Source: Ascidia mentula | Taxonomy: Eukaryota > Chordata > Ascidiacea > Phlebobranchia > Ascidiidae | Length of the DNA: 64,000 bases | Direction: 5' to 3' | Assembly: GCA_947561715.1 (NCBI GenBank) | Contig: OX387204.1 | Location: 16,311,001-16,375,000 of the forward strand | Shown: in pieces, positions 20,223-61,525 of the stretch | Layout of the letters: every line of letters begins with the position of its first letter | Position numbering within the stretch: the first letter of the stretch is position 1 | The notes under the pieces: generated by a model | Seen by the model: the letters and a program-made list of their open reading frames with translations, nothing else | Told to the model about the DNA's origin: nothing | Databases searched by the model: none | Made by a program: the position numbers and the translations under genes

Positions 20223-23196
20223 TTACTTTTCCTTGACTAAATTGTGTTTGAAATCATGGCTGGTTGAATCTTTCAGAGCTTCAGCATACAAATTGTGCCT
20301 TGCAGTCATCTGAAAAACAATATGTTGTTTCAGTCACAAAAACATTACACCAACAATTAAAAAAAAATTACTTGTTAGTTTTAAACATTCCCCTTTTTCA
20401 CACCGGACTTTGCAAACTCACTTGAAACTAACTTTCCTTCACATAGCAATAAACTCATGGTAGTGTGTACAATACACAGAATCTATTTTCTCTTTAGTAA
20501 ATAACATGCTACCACATCGATTTTTAAATATTGTTAATAAATCAGCTGGCTTCAATTTGAAACTTCTGATAGTTCCACAATATTGACTTAATACCAAAAT
20601 AGGAAATTGGTGTCGCTGATAGAATGCAATGCCAAACAGAGGGCTAGATTCTGAAAAAAACTAAGGAAAGAGTCCTACCACAGGAATATTTTATTGCAAC
20701 TTTATACTCACTTACATTTCAAAACTGTATTCATTCTCTTTTCGATTGGTACCCAATATATCAACTTTACTGCAAAGTACCACTTGGTAAAAATGCTTTA
20801 CCAGATCAGTTTACTGAAAAGACCATGCCACAAGCTGTAATGATGAGCACTGACCTGGCAGGTCGAAACTGTGTGCACCATCTGCAGCAACTTATTAATT
20901 TTTAGTTCTGGAGTAACATAACCATAGTTTGCCACCTCTCATTTACAAAACACAGCGGCTTTATCCATTCTCCTTATAAAGCAGTCCTTGGATATTACCA
21001 TGATTAACTAACTGTTGATATCTATCTACATTGCTTTTTATTCAACACACTGCTTTCAATGACTTAGTGAAACAAGATCATGCAACCTACCAAAATCAGA
21101 TGATATGAAATCTTACCCTAAATCCCCACTTGTCTGATATTTGCTGACACATGTTGAGATCCACAGAAGTAACCAACAACCCATCCCTGGTTCTGCACAA
21201 TCCTGGAGTCCTTGTTCCATCAGGAGCAGCTACATAACTTGAACCTAATGCACATCGCTCATTACATTTAACACATTTTGTGGCAGTGTTTAGTTGACCT
21301 GAACAATTGTTTTTGGTAACAACCAAGACAATTATTCAAATGTCAAAGACAATGACTGTTAATGTCATATGTATTTTTGATTCAATGTTTTATTAGATTA
21401 TGATAGAAGAGCAAAAAAAGGCAAGTTAATATCCAATACTTTAGAATTATGCCATGCAATACCATAAAAATGACCAAAATCTTTGTGTGCAGGCTTTCCA
21501 TCTGCAGATGTGAATTCATTGGGAAAAGTTTCCTTGTTTGAGAAAATGTATTCATGAGAAAATGTGTCAACCTATAATTAACCTACACAAATATTGTACT
21601 TACAGTTCCCACTCTGTTTATTGCACATGTAAAGTAGTGATTAGCAATAGCTGCACATCTGGCTTCAATCCGCCACATTGGTTCTGATAAAGATCCAACT
21701 GTAGCAGAAGGATTGAACACAATTTCAGCACCATTTACACCATACATAAGCCTGAAAAAGACACAAACTACTGTTCAATAATTTTACACAAAACCTTACT
21801 GCCAAGATTAAACACTTGCCAATTTAAGGGGTGATGGCGGCCAAAGCAAATGTTTATGGCAATTCGACCAAATGCAGTTTGAAAAACCCTGTGGCCAGTG
21901 TCACCTTCCATGTAATACGTCGACTATAAAACAATCAGAGTTTAACACCAATAAATTAGCATTTTATTAATGGTCTAAAAAAAATTATATATATACCTCA
22001 TTAAAATCTCCCACTCTTGGAATGTGATTTTTACGTGTTTTACCCAAAACACTGCCGTTGTTGGATATAACCACTGCGGTGTTCCACAAAACACCACCAT
22101 GTATGGAGTCTCTTTCAAGAATAGGTGAAATAATGACCATGTTGTACTTCCGTGCCAACTGCAGGCAATGCACATTATGTTCTGTTCCACTTTCTAAGAA
22201 GAAAAATTAGTCACCTCTTGGCACAATTTAGTAGTGGGTCCATCTTCAGCTGACTCTGCGAAATCCGTCCAGGGGCTTTTTTCTCGTGTGCAAAATGCAA
22301 ATGGCATGGCTGCAAGACAAAATTTCCCTCTTGTAAGTGCTCAGCAATAAGTATTACTTGTGTGCAAATAAGTAGTATGTCAAAACTAAAATAAACGAAG
22401 TCGAACAGGTACTCACTCCATGCTTCCTGGAAACAGAGAACATTCACTCCACATAGGTTGGCAGCTTCAGCAATATCTGCAATCCGCTTGTGCAATTTTA
22501 CCACCTGAACACAGAAAATAAGGTGCTTTACGATTATTTAGAAAATAGCTTTGACAAAAACAATATACTGTTTCTAGTCAAAATGAAGAAATCTTTACAA
22601 TTTTGGACAAAAACAATTATTCTGCACATAAACTGAAGCATAAAAACAACTGACCGACCTATAAGCAGCAACAAAGCCAAAATGGTTATGAACATTATCT
22701 TTGTTTACCTGTTCCAACACTGGAGCATCTGTTGAGGCCACAATCTGATTTTGTATGAGGCCAATGACTACATTTCTGGGTGTCTTCTGTGAGTCAATAC
22801 TTGGAATTTGGTAACCTTGCAGTTCAAAGTTTTTGTCATCAGATATTGCTTTTGCCTTGTCAGGGATTGTCAAATGCCTTCACACAAATTTTAAAGATCT
22901 GGATTAATATAACACAAGAATCAGCCTGTTTTGTGTATAGTGGCAATAAAGAATATTTGTATTATTCCAAAAACCTTTAAGTGACAGTGCCACGGAAATT
23001 ATCATTAAAAATTATTTCTGCAATCAAATTGTTAAATTCGGAGGAAATAAAGACATACAATTTGATACAAACTGTTTTCGTCACGTTTGAAATCTGCTTA
23101 CCGACAAGCTTTTCCGTATAGCACGCGATTTACCTCGGCCAATTCATTCTCAGGAATGTACTTCTTTAAAGTTTCTTCAACGCTTGAAAACTCCAT
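20223..23196 (-). CDS. UPB1: Beta-ureidopropionase (N-carbamoyl-beta-alanine amidohydrolase)
   Basis: Ten minus-strand exons: 23196-23102, 22877-22709, 22504-22417, 22309-22215, 22158-21997, 21923-21820, 21751-21604, 21532-21463, 21244-21117, 20309-20223. They join in phase to 381 aa, close to the vertebrate enzyme. It catalyses the last step of reductive pyrimidine breakdown, hydrolysing N-carbamoyl-beta-alanine (or its methyl form) to beta-alanine (or beta-aminoisobutyrate), CO2 and ammonia, in the cytosol. The nitrilase-fold triad is visible: Glu115 in CFQEAW, Lys192 in TRKNHIP, Cys229 in NICFGRHHP. Other landmarks are FELQGY, SPILERD, GNTAVV-like [22 protein letters not shown] and the C-terminal KEK. 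Intron 6 begins GC, not GT (after tg at 21820); only that choice restores NW-LMYG. The gene is divergent from the SLC22 gene, sharing about 1 kb of intergenic DNA. Confidence 0.97.
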
Positions 23197-31739: not shown

Positions 31740-32831
31740 AGCATGTGTAGTAGCCCATAGTTATGCATGATACGTCATATTTAGTGATATATGCGTGCTA
31801 ATTTATCTTGGCACTTGATCAAATCATCTAGCAAACGTACGGTGGTTAGCATGTTTTTTTCTCGGGCAAAATAAATCCAACGGGAAAAGTTTATTTCTTG
31901 ATTGCTTTGCTAGTCAAAGTTTGAATTGAGTTTCCGTCTCAATTGCTTGGCAACAAATCAATAGTTAAGGTGATCAGTATTTTCGTTTTATCGTTTTATG
32001 TTAGTTTCATCACGCACAGGAAAGTCACTTCTAATTATACGAAAATTCTACCACACACAGTTTTTAAAATAAGAAACAGTTTTTTTAAATACACAAAGTA
32101 AGACGTAAGTAGTTTTCGGCACATATCCCACGATGACGATCGTTTTGCTGTGGTGACTCTTGTCACTCCTTCATATTGAGTATTAAAGCCCCATTTGCTT
32201 GTGATAAAAACGGTTGCAGGCCAGTGACAAAATTATACACGGTTATGAATTCATACAAGGTTGCACGGAAGCTTGAGTCTTCTGTTCCAAGGTTCATCAA
32301 ATATTTAGGTGTTTTATAACCCGTGTTATCATCAGAGAGAAGGTTTTCCATTCGTGATATCGGACAATTAAAATATCGCGGTAAAAATAAAGTTGGAAAC
32401 AATATGTAAAGTGAAAATGCACAAACAAACCTTTATCATATATGTGCAAAAAAAGCCATATTATTGCAAAGCTGCAGGCAGGGTGTGTACACGCACTGTT
32501 TCGACCTGTAAGGTCTCATTAGTGCAGCTGTTGAGTGGCACTGTGCTAGCTTTTGCACTAGCAGGCACACTACCGCAAAGGTACCACAAAGTGGAAATCT
32601 GACGGTTTTACTACGAATGTGTCAACACCAAAAAGACTCTGGTCATGATCACCCTCAAATCTGCACGTCAATAAGTAAGCTTGGGTATTTCAAAATTTCC
32701 AACAACATGACTTAGTTTTTATTTGACATAATTTACCACATTAAGCACTAAAGTTTGAAAAAAAACTGTTACTCGCTAAGACTTTATAATATTTGGCACT
32801 CCACTAAAATTTCTTGCTGACCGCCCACTGA
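31740..32831. other. Intergenic between SLC22 and claudin-like A
   Basis: Convergent 3' ends. Contains the decayed hammerhead copy at 32470-32529 and an AATAAA near 31868. No gene seen. Confidence 0.55.
32470..32529 (-). ncRNA. Decayed hammerhead ribozyme copy
   Basis: Same architecture as the motif at 36.1 kb, on the same strand: stem I AGCTGCA/TGCAGCT intact, stem II GACCT/AGGTC intact, GAAA intact, stem III CAG/CTG intact with a longer loop. Two core changes are seen: CTAATGA in place of CTGATGA (G5 to A) and CC in place of TC at the cleavage site (U16.1 to C). Either should abolish cleavage. It lies about 300 nt past the stop of claudin-like gene A. Confidence 0.7.
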
Positions 32832-34956: not shown

Positions 34957-35977
34957 TTATTCGTCCATGCTGGCTTGCTTCCATGCAGCGAACATATTTA
35001 TCATGCCCCCCACAATAGAAAGCACACATCCGAGCCAGGATAAAATGTAGCTGTATCCAAAGGTCATTTTTGGTGCAGGTACTGTGTACATAGTGGTCGA
35101 TATCATAGCAGAAACTCCTACAGGATGTATAGAAAAGAAATCCACTTAATAACGTGTTGAAAACATACCTTTTTTATTTTGGCAATTGCAAATGGCAGTT
35201 GTCGTTAGGTGTCAGTTTCATTATTACGTCTCGTTGTTTTTGTTGTATTTGTGACTTCCCAACGAACAAGTTAATGCTGTATTTCAAAAACCTCAACCCA
35301 AATTTGTCATACAGTGTATAAACTTGATACAAGTCACATACATTCATTGCCTCGACATGCACTCATGTAAACAGTGAAGCATATTCCCTCTGTTCGATGC
35401 AGTCCGTGTGATAGTGGACATTATGGATTGCACAGCTGCGATACATAAATGCATAACTTACCACTCACTACAGAAAGCACTCCGGAAATACGCAGATATT
35501 TATTCTTGCCGTTGGTACCAATAAAAGAAAGGTATATTGCTGGCAACATCAGGACAGCGGCTATTGAATGTAAGGCAATAATTGCAGCACCATACGTAGT
35601 GAACAGACCTACAATTAAATTTAAAAATACATTTGTGAATTATCAATCGCTGTCAAAAAACAAATTATCGTAAACCAAACAAAACTTCATGCCTAACATG
35701 ACCAAGTGCGCAGGAAAAAGCTAGTTTTATACTTTAGTGCAACCTAATACATTTAATCTTGCAAAATGTTGAACACGACCGTACCTACTGAAACACATTG
35801 CCAAGCTACGCAATGCATAAAAAGTCCCATCGTTTCAGCAGCATCAACACTTTTGTCTCTGTAGGTCTCAAAGGAACTGTCTCTGTAAATCCATCCAGGT
35901 GATAGCAATGCCGCCATTACAGCAAGGCCAGCCAGCGTTGTTGTAACGAGCCCAACAATTGAGAGCAGCTGTTTCAT
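34957..35977 (-). CDS. Claudin-like four-transmembrane protein B
   Basis: Exons 35977-35785, 35608-35462 and 35117-34957 (minus) join in phase to 166 aa. TM1 is MKQLLSIVGLVTTTLAGLAV; the first extracellular loop has SPGW and then GLF..C....C, a good match to the claudin/PMP22 W-GLW-C-C signature. TM2 is in exon 2, TM3 spans exons 2-3, and TM4 is preceded by FGYSYILSW. The middle exon is 147 nt, as in claudin-like A, and both genes have introns at phase 1, so they are tandem paralogues with strongly diverged loops. Expected in the plasma membrane at junctions; function beyond that is inference. A hammerhead ribozyme motif in the same sense lies 133 nt upstream of the ATG. Confidence 0.83.
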
Positions 35978-36098
35978 TGTGATTAACTGGATTATTTTTG
36001 GGTCCGCTAGATGCAAGCCTGTTATGTTTTTTTCATTCACACAGCCGGAATATTTAAAAAAGTGACTTGCCGTGCAATTGCTTGAACAGATAAAACCT

Positions 36099-36177
36099 GA
36101 ATTGTGTAAGCTGCAGACAGATGGCCACTGTTTCGACCTAAAAGGTCTCATCAGTGCAGCTGCGGCTTACACAATTC
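36099..36177 (-). ncRNA. Type I hammerhead self-cleaving ribozyme motif
   Basis: Read on the minus strand from 36160 to 36110: stem I strand GCTGCA, core CTGATGA, stem II GACCT/AGGTC with loop TTT, core GAAA, stem III CAG/CTG with a 7-nt loop, then TC as U16.1-C17, and the second stem I strand TGCAGC, the exact complement of the first. All invariant hammerhead core positions are present. Predicted cleavage is between the complements of 36116 and 36115. Stem I goes on beyond a 6-nt one-sided bulge with 11 more pairs (36099-36109 with 36167-36177), the place where natural hammerheads make contacts with loop 2. The sequence rules are established; activity and transcription are inferred. Confidence 0.88.
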
Positions 36178-37489
36178 ATTTTATTGGCTCCACTTTGCTT
36201 AGATAAATCCTGGTTTGCGCAAATACCTATTGGTAAAGGGTCCTATCGAAATCAAAACTTAATTTAAACATATTTAATAGCCTGCAGCAGATGTATACGC
36301 GATACTAATTTGACTTGACCGTTGGTGCGTCTTCATTTAAAACTCTTAACACTCCGAGCGTCTATATATAGACGATTATGTGCCTACCATATAGAATCCG
36401 AGCGTCTATATCCAGTAACTGAAACCGCCATTGCGTCGCAATCTTAAGCCTTGGCCGCGCAAAAGTACATTTAGTTTAATGCACTAGGATGGAGAAACTG
36501 TTCCTTGCGTCAACAAAAGTCTACAATTATGTTTTGATGAATTTTGATCAAATATATATAACGCTAATTTTCAGAAATTTTGGGCGTGTTTGCACTGTTT
36601 TCAAACATTGGGTTGCAATGCGACCAGCAACGCAACGTTATAATCAAATTATAATTAATTGTGCGGCCTTGCACCCTTGATATTATTTGAACAAAACAGC
36701 TTTTATGTTGTGTGGAATTTTATTGTCGCACATACGAAAGACATTTAGGCTCGTCACAGTACAACAAGGAAATACCCAGAGGCACAACGACCGCTCGGTG
36801 GCGCTCCGAAAAATAAAACAAAAAACGAACGGAGAAATCTTTGCACAACACCGTAGCACCGCGTGACGGCAGCAGAGAGCGTAAGCTTGATCAGCATTTT
36901 TTTCTTGCCCATTCGTCCCCTTCGTGGTTTTGTAACCTTAAAAAAAGCTGTGACATTGCAAGTGCGACGTGACAAGGCGCAAGTCACGATTTGTAGTTGC
37001 ACGAACGACGAAACGTTATTGCGCAAGCAGTTCATATCTAGCATAAACAAATGGTTTCCCTTCAGCGCATATGTCAAAAAAGCAACACAATCGTTGAAAG
37101 TTTATGCTCTGTGCTGAAATTACCCACTTTTTTGCATAAGGATGTATCTTGTTCGGTTGCTTTAGCAGCGTTGACGACTGAATACGCCAACATGGGATAT
37201 AAAGAAATGACGCAGCAACACTCAATGTCATGAGCACAAAAATACACAAAATAGGTTGTATTATTCTATGGCAAACTTGCCTTTAAGAGTGTGCGAATCA
37301 CACGGCTGAACATGATACTTCAGAACTGCGGTACTTAACCATGTCCGCAGGTTTCTCAAAGCAACATACGGAGACTAACACACACACACACACACATGCA
37401 CACTTAAGGTACCGCTTACACGCAGACGGACGAATAAATATCTGAAAAACACGTGGGCTTGTTCGGCTTCGGAAGTCTCGGTGTACTCA
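36178..37489. other. Intergenic upstream of claudin-like B
   Basis: A short repeat CCGAGCGTCTATAT occurs near 36355 and 36400, and a (CA)n run at 37378. ORFs at 36754-37117 on both strands have no family features. Nothing else seen. Confidence 0.5.
37378..37402. repeat. (CA)n microsatellite
   Basis: About nine CA dinucleotides in a row, just past the 3' end of the BCL2L13-like gene. Confidence 0.8.
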
Positions 37490-60640: not shown

Positions 60641-61525
60641 ACAAATGCTTGATAATGTTAACACAGTGAAAACTATATGTACAAAGTAGTGATTAACATA
60701 CACGGATGTTGTTTCGATGATTTTTATATCTCTAACCAATGGAAAAGGTCCGAAAAAAATGGACAAATGGATTTCTGTTAGATTAACAGCAACAAATAAA
60801 ATTACATTAAATTTAGAGGCCTCTTATTATTTTGCAAATATTGACGAAACCAACTATTGGTCCCATTCCAAGCCATAAAGACGTGAGCTAAAGATAGTAG
60901 TTTGCACTGTTTCGACCTATCAGGTCTCATCAGTGCAACTGGTGAGGAAGGATGGTCTTGCAGGCAGAATAGACAGAGACTATTTCACATTGTAGTTAAC
61001 GTCGATCCGTTACAGGTAACGAACTATAGGTACTATCGAGAACGAACCTCAGTAGAACGTTGTATTGCCGTGTTAAAAGTTTAAAAAGAGCTTTGATGCA
61101 TTGCCGATCGCGATTTCTGCGAATCAAAACTCACTAATGTCGATTATACGTCGTGGGAGATACAGAGAATCAAAACAATCCTTTCACGTTTGTAAGAGTC
61201 GTTAAGCAAACTGTGATATTATGTATCAACGTATTAATCAACAAATACCTCGAAGTCATTTTTTCTTTGCGGTGATAGTTTTGAGATAATTTTGGGGTCT
61301 ACCGACGCACCGAGACAGGAAAGTATGAAGTGATAATTGGTTAGGATACTTAAGCTGTTGCTGCCAAGCAGATTTTATTCCAAGTATGAACTAATGAGAA
61401 TGTTTTGAACAACGAATATACATTGCGTTTTAAATTATAAGTGCCGCACTTGAATCCAGTACTAATCAAATAATTTAATTAATTTTATTCGCCTGAACAG
61501 GGGCAAACTAAAACCCTTTGATAAG
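60641..61525. other. 3' flank of SLC1 copy 4
   Basis: Contains AATAAA near 60798 and the hammerhead remnant at 60899-60940. No exons 1-9 for the fifth SLC1 remnant were found here. Confidence 0.5.
60899..60940 (-). ncRNA. Hammerhead ribozyme remnant without stem III
   Basis: On the minus strand CTGATGA, stem II GACCT/AGGTC and GAAA are intact, flanked by stem I-like AGTTGCA and TGCAAACT. The segment that should form stem III and the cleavage triplet has shrunk to CAG. It cannot cleave but clearly belongs to the same sequence family as the motifs at 32.5 and 36.1 kb. Confidence 0.65.

Follow-up and report, generated by a model that had tools for sequence, protein, structure and literature searches.

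Hammerhead motif and neighbouring gene

The window, that is, the whole stretch of DNA analysed here, comprises 64,000 nt of chromosome 8 of the sea squirt Ascidia mentula (16,311,001-16,375,000). Its minus strand carries, from 36177 to 36099, a sequence in which the core of a type I hammerhead ribozyme can be read with no nucleotide missing (Table 1). The complete core described in an earlier note on this DNA was thereby borne out, with its stems on the minus strand. The motif lies in sense ahead of a claudin-like gene, as had also been stated, while the distance of 133 nt given for it was not reproduced: the ATG (35977) lies 121 nt beyond 36099 and 138 nt beyond the predicted cleavage site. 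The exons of this gene, joined by eye, matched PMP22_Claudin with 25.0 bits (cut-off 26.7, E 2e-5), and the first exon alone gave no claudin match.

Table 1. Features of the hammerhead locus, in window coordinates
Feature	Position	Strand	Basis or remark
Hammerhead with extended stem I (extent of the earlier note)	36099..36177	-	base 36099 belongs to the target duplication
Outer stem I, 12 bp	36177-36166 with 36110-36099	-	C36110 able to pair in the inner or outer part
Inner stem I	~36160-36155 with 36115-36110	-	sequence
CUGAUGA core	36148..36154	-	sequence
Stem-loop II (GACC UUUUA GGUC)	36135..36147	-	stem GACC 36147-36144 / GGUC 36138-36135
GAAA core	36131..36134	-	sequence
Stem-loop III (ACAG UGGCCAU CUGU)	36117..36131	-	ACAG 36131-36128 / CUGU 36120-36117
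Predicted cleavage site C36116 / U36115	36115..36116	-	sequence; dinucleotide U36117-C36116, predicted cut before U36115
Complete insertion of the retrozyme (101 nt), with two head-to-head arms	36100..36200	-	mapping on the 285-nt unit and target duplication
A arm, 63 nt: stem I 5' strand, core, 16 nt past the cleavage site	36100..36162	-	97% to the L003 unit
B arm: flank downstream of the cleavage site, copied in inverted orientation	~36160..36200	+	86% to the L003 unit
Target duplication, upstream copy CAGGATTTATCT	36201..36212	-	imperfect 12 bp
Target duplication, downstream copy CAGGTTTTATCT	36088..36099	-	sequence; 1 mismatch
ATG of the claudin-like gene	35975..35977	-	122 nt past the insertion end

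Rfam did not report the window hammerhead at gathering scores, and no RF00163 row appeared for it, relaxed scores included. The best relaxed match was Hammerhead_3 (RF00008), at 20.1 bits against a cut-off of 48.5, and RF03152 gave 17.6 bits against 56.3; the gathering cut-offs of Hammerhead_1, Hammerhead_3 and RAGATH-1 were not reached. The covariance-model check proposed in the earlier note thus gave a score below the Rfam threshold, but array copies of the same family score no better (20.6 bits, likewise under the Rfam cut-offs), so the miss says little about the window copy, and the Rfam score was dropped as a yardstick for it. A whole-genome search with RF00163 gave 0 matches, as it did in 14 control genomes.

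The minimum-energy structure from RNAfold is not a hammerhead and has the core paired (-35.9 kcal/mol, against -23.9 kcal/mol for the hammerhead pairs, both without tertiary contacts). Because tertiary contacts lie outside the RNAfold model, these modelled energies neither prove nor exclude hammerhead activity. Covariation gave no support for the stems: pairing was seen in 95.7% of cells, within the range of the shuffles (95.2%), and this test was dropped as well. It was also observed that CACUG, lying partly ahead of the core and partly within it, can pair with the CAGUG that follows GAAA, giving a longer stem II that hides the core, and that CAGTG is kept in most of the variants read, including those with a different stem III. 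This pairing may represent an inactive state of the ribozyme.

A family of 285-nt units

The core CTGATGAGACCNNNNAGGTCGAAAC, searched with at most 2 mismatches and 4 free loop bases, occurs 4164 times in the genome of 195.8 Mb (79 contigs, nine of them large), with 2101 occurrences on the forward and 2063 on the reverse strand. The same pattern written backwards has 0 occurrences, so the motif is not due to chance. The search for further copies suggested in the earlier note thus showed that the window copy is not unique, and the family is present on all nine large contigs. Among 119 hammerheads read from fetched loci, a read-out that required CTGATGAGAC and GTC, 49 are identical to that of the window across 53 nt.

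The element to which these hammerheads belong is a non-coding unit of 285 nt that occurs in tandem and also in divergent arrays. The array L061 on chromosome 1 illustrates the arrangement: a target duplication is followed by an inverted partial unit, then by part of a unit with over five further units of 285-286 nt in direct orientation, and finally by the target duplication again. A search with the unit scored 174 matches at 40 loci out of 2097 candidates, many of them divergent arrays. Arms hold up to about five and a half units, and the window copy itself is shorter than one. The GC content of the unit is 47%, and it contains no long frame; the longest stop-free runs across head-to-tail copies are 94 and 59 codons in one copy, and 55 and 58 in another.

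Judged by its sequence, the window motif represents the hammerhead of a metazoan-type retrozyme that is non-autonomous and non-coding, here in a sea squirt. The earlier note had offered a small mobile RNA element as an alternative, and this is well supported by the thousands of copies, the 285-nt tandem units and the target duplications. The type I hammerhead has an intact core, the tandem repeats fall within 150-450 bp and range from dimers to multimers, and the unit is non-coding with less than 50% GC; for the combined trait of target duplications longer than 4 bp without LTR, PBS or PPT, duplications of that length were found. The available text of PMC7229834 describes the metazoan non-LTR retrozymes in similar terms, with a type I hammerhead, a non-coding tandem unit of ~170-400 nt, GC below 50%, target duplications above 4 bp and co-existing Penelope-like elements (PLEs). 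The sea-squirt family differs from them in its host and in that its insertions are often head to head with two fixed outer ends; the words 'inverted' and 'head-to-head' appear 0 times in the main text of PMC7229834.

The window copy as an insertion

Positions within the unit were numbered from the first base after the cleavage site (r1) on the reference unit L003. The A arm of the window copy ends on the outside at a position termed site A (r18), the B arm at site B (r42), and the two arms overlap by 3 nt in the mapping. The target duplication has a score of 7.55. The window copy thus appears to be a minimal product, in which the A arm carries the hammerhead and the inverted B arm measures ~40 nt, and amounts to an ordinary insertion of an interesting element.

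This structure also bears on the extended stem I with a bulge that the earlier note had described. The extension is present, but it originates as the scar of a head-to-head insertion and not from the ancestral ribozyme: as the letters of the two arms read, the 12-bp outer stem I is the same flank meeting from both arms, and the bulge is the arm junction. Moreover, the CACACC found before inner stem I in most copies read is GCCGC in the window copy, so the usual loop contacts may be lost. With the outer stem derived from an inverted arm and CACACC replaced, the natural fast-cleaving architecture that had been attributed to this hammerhead is not supported.

Orientation and position had raised the possibility that selection maintains the hammerhead within the claudin-like gene's 5' leader, where it would cut and so control the mRNA. 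It is in sense, with the predicted cleavage site 138 nt from the ATG, and its core is intact whereas two other hammerhead-like copies in the window are broken or incomplete. The target duplication and the two-arm structure, however, show an insertion, and with the same 53 nt in 49 of the 119 hammerheads read, an intact core needs no local selection. Control of the claudin-like gene is possible but was not supported, and I consider selection in the leader highly improbable. The case calls for caution, as a perfect ribozyme before a gene can be an ordinary insertion. Amniotes have a few conserved intronic hammerheads, HH9 and HH10, which resemble the window hammerhead in lying close to a gene; unlike these, it is one of thousands of dispersed copies.

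Two fixed outer ends

The outer ends were then compared across 97 loci (L001-L080 and L096-L112), reduced to 64 insertions by leaving out eight loci of repeats or gene duplications (L033, L035, L037, L062-L065, L073), two without a match group (L066, L067), two duplicates (L021, L036) and 21 loci of other subfamilies. Among the loci left out, L062-L065 and L073 have same-strand hammerheads ~5 kb apart and had been considered as PLEs with terminal hammerheads; this was rejected on finding protease-like and other gene fragments between them. By eye, these pairs are apparently tandem gene duplications that carry old copies 4-5 kb apart. With the first reference unit, L061, many arm ends fell at r241, next to a private base of L061 at r240, and the L003 unit was used instead.

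The 64 insertions comprise 37 with two arms and 27 with one. For counting, site A was defined as r5-26 and site B as r36-58. On this definition, 32 of the 37 two-arm insertions pair an A end with a B end and five have one end elsewhere; the combinations A/A and B/B do not occur. The A/B combination was found in every two-arm insertion whose target duplication is 9 bp or longer (29/29), with ends at r12-18 and r39-49. Three of them (L017, L018, L029) share the inner junction and have almost identical target duplications and look like one duplicated insertion; counted once, they leave 27/27 independent insertions as A/B. Were A and B equally likely and chosen independently at each end, the chance of this outcome would be ~7 in 10^9 by my own arithmetic. 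Requiring a target-duplication score of at least 9 retains 19 of 35 two-arm insertions, all of them A/B (19/19). One-arm insertions end at A in 15 cases, at B in ten and elsewhere in two. Seven further arrays, chosen by length, behave alike: all six with two arms are A/B (A at r11-17, B at r42-48), and the one-arm array L115 ends at B.

Target duplications of 9-15 bp, and in one case 21 bp, were found in 47 of the 64 insertions and are 77% A+T; the remaining 17 have none of at least 9 bp. A score of at least 9 was reached by 32 of 62 insertions and by 1 of 400 swapped flanks. At a score of at least 8 the swapped flanks likewise gave 1/400, and at a score of at least 7 they gave 5/400, compared with 43/62 true flank pairs. 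In other subfamilies, several two-arm copies share one target duplication (L040, L041, L045, L074).

A near-palindromic copy with inverted ends and a target duplication, such as that in the window, could also be taken for a miniature DNA transposon with terminal inverted repeats. The ends are staggered by ~30 nt, however, tandem multimers and one-arm copies exist, and the length of the target duplication varies from 9 to 15 bp and is once 21, which together make a DNA transposon scarcely credible.

The inner junctions show no such regularity. The 35 that were read are scattered over the unit, mostly with small overlaps or gaps. The arms meet at the cleavage site, r1, in L014, L020, L030 and L109, and by eye in L003, which could reflect a cleaved template, although a 7-nt overlap in stem I explains L014, L020 and L030 too. 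The same overlap at the inner junctions of these three is what would be expected if a single cDNA or antisense template had primed itself (snap-back) to give the head-to-head arms, without priming on both target strands, a route proposed for head-to-head Penelope copies in the accessible part of PMC3846280. Self-priming sits poorly with junctions that are scattered and have mostly small overlaps or gaps, gives no reason for the pairing of A with B at the outer ends, and differs from the extension of both target strands described in the available portion of PMC11167929. It is therefore an unlikely source of the arms, and priming on both target strands is preferred.

Probably one kind of RNA for both arms

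Units from eight arrays were compared within and between arms. Identity is 99.8% within the same arm (46 pairs) and likewise 99.8% between opposite arms (30 pairs), while units of different arrays are 98.4% identical on average (590 pairs), with a maximum of 100%. In older insertions, plain identity between arms was not above the background between different elements, which would be put down to later mutation; it was dropped as a test, and rare alleles and young arrays were used instead. In the wider sample, opposite arms have 8 of 47 rare alleles in common against 0.62 expected, with the shared alleles coming from 4 of 23 elements, and 39 of the 47 unshared. Successive rounds have 4 of 28 in common, against 0.47 expected. 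At least in these informative cases, the two arms were copied from a single kind of RNA, and the presence of several rounds across an intact cleavage site suggests a circle or an uncut multimer as template.

Penelope-like elements of the same genome

A search for GIY-YIG scored 150 of 382 candidates, and all 150 matched, although not all of them need be PLEs. The frame of L086 reached 29.5 bits for GIY-YIG, above the cut-off, and 20.2 bits for RVT_1, below its cut-off of 29.6. PLEs with RT and GIY-YIG are present in the same genome as the retrozyme. Divergent tandem series of GIY-YIG were observed at C67:6134028-6146916 and C52:9243979-9259647, with periods of 2870 nt and 3493 nt, respectively, and several lie in open frames of 885-953 codons; both series are arranged like retrozyme arrays. 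The locus L093 is the centre, and not the ends, of a PLE array, and L082 and L089 each have, near PLE sequence, a hammerhead element in decayed form (71-72% over 110 nt).

Four two-arm PLE insertions were examined, and three of them have target duplications of 12-13 bp. Past the start of a hammerhead-like motif, their arms end at 86 and 120 nt (L086), 92 and 130 nt (L091) and 87 and 131 nt (L120/L121). One arm is thus 34-44 nt longer than the other, and the two-arm retrozyme insertions show the same pattern, with one end short and the other extended by a tail. In L120-L121, an exact match of 14 nt, the longest there, turned out to be a palindrome within both arms and was set aside for a 12-nt match at the element ends. 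The fourth insertion, L083, has no usable target duplication, its sole match being 8 nt long and inside the element, and was left uncounted; by eye, one of its arms outruns the other. No helper element was identified; none of the PLE stretches compared, which represent a minority of the PLE copies, resembles the A-B stretch of the retrozyme.

The way the copies are built suggests that this retrozyme is moved by Penelope-like retrotransposons. Another candidate mover is a LINE-type enzyme with twin priming, which in L1 gives 5' inversions. In the retrozyme, however, reverse transcription appears to begin internally, at two sites beyond the cleavage site and not at the RNA 3' end, and the same two-site pattern occurs in the PLEs of this genome. 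A LINE-type mover is hence very unlikely, and a Penelope-type enzyme is the preferred one.

Proposed course of insertion

Tandem 285-nt transcripts would be cut into monomers by the hammerhead, and circularisation of these monomers is probable. The two strands of an AT-rich target would be cut ~9-15 bp apart by a Penelope-type RT/endonuclease, and a single retrozyme RNA would then template the extension of both, with site A as the start for one strand and site B for the other. These starts would lie ~11-18 and 39-49 nt beyond the cleavage site. The resulting cDNAs, either short or spanning several rounds, would then be joined head to head. Site A may be covered by the first cDNA, forcing the second strand to the other site; if one RNA molecule served both strands, the A/B rule would follow.

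Parts of this course have been described for PLEs. In vitro, according to the available text of PMC11167929, RT starts at two adjacent sites and both target strands are extended; the same text reports against it that the strands do not differ in start site in bulk and that hammerhead mutants still insert. A rotifer Penelope element carries a 31-bp tail on one of its inverted pLTRs, as stated in the accessible part of PMC3846280. The retrozyme insertions resemble PLEs as described in these two partly available papers in being head to head with a target duplication, in the ~30-nt tail on one of two arms, in the two adjacent RT start sites and in the hammerhead near the RT start. The retrozyme is unlike PLEs in that its unit has no long frame and does not code for RT and endonuclease. 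Its hammerhead is a full one with stem III, whereas PLE hammerheads are minimal variants, according to the available portion of PMC7761336.

As a whole, the explanation by a retrozyme, a Penelope-type enzyme, starts at A and B, and a minimal product in the window is one I hold with considerable confidence. Its extension to animal retrozymes and their Penelope-type enzymes in general, with an obligate two-start insertion on one RNA circle, A for one strand and B for the other, each able to roll several rounds, would be a conjecture with an even chance of being right. If the two-start reading is true, every insertion records the site used by each strand, and the copies would be, to my knowledge, the first insertion-by-insertion evidence of the integration of an animal retrozyme and of the enzyme behind it.

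PLEs have been named a 'strong candidate' for moving retrozymes (PMC7229834), and PLEs and Terminons 'likely candidates' (PMC7761336); in the sections of both papers that were available, the candidacy of PLEs rests on shared hammerheads, tandem copies and co-occurrence. In the portions of the printed literature at hand, the idea that a Penelope-type enzyme primes both target strands on a single retrozyme RNA was found as a proposal only. A literature search covering few subscription journals found neither ascidian retrozymes nor an A/B rule treated in any title or abstract, and an ascidian genome paper lists 9 type I hammerhead loci in its accessible text (PMC8704543). The present family belongs to the animal retrozymes as an ascidian member, and its copies bear the fingerprint of Penelope-type insertion. 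With this two-site fingerprint common to the retrozymes and PLEs of one genome, the question of the mover becomes directly testable in vitro and in other genomes.

Other hammerhead sequences

The genome holds other hammerhead subfamilies, with loops TTAC, TGAC and CAAT. In the window, a second hammerhead core, CTGATGAGACCTGATAGGTCGAAACAGTG, lies on the minus strand at 60904-60945; it is ~92% identical to the retrozyme over 40 nt and is without the usual half of the cleavage site. A copy of another subfamily, at 32435-32601 on the minus strand, has a broken core (CTAATGA for CTGATGA, and TGCC for TGTC at the place of cleavage), and the stretch 20831-20888 weakly matches a copy of the TGAC-loop subfamily (76%, E 7e-6).
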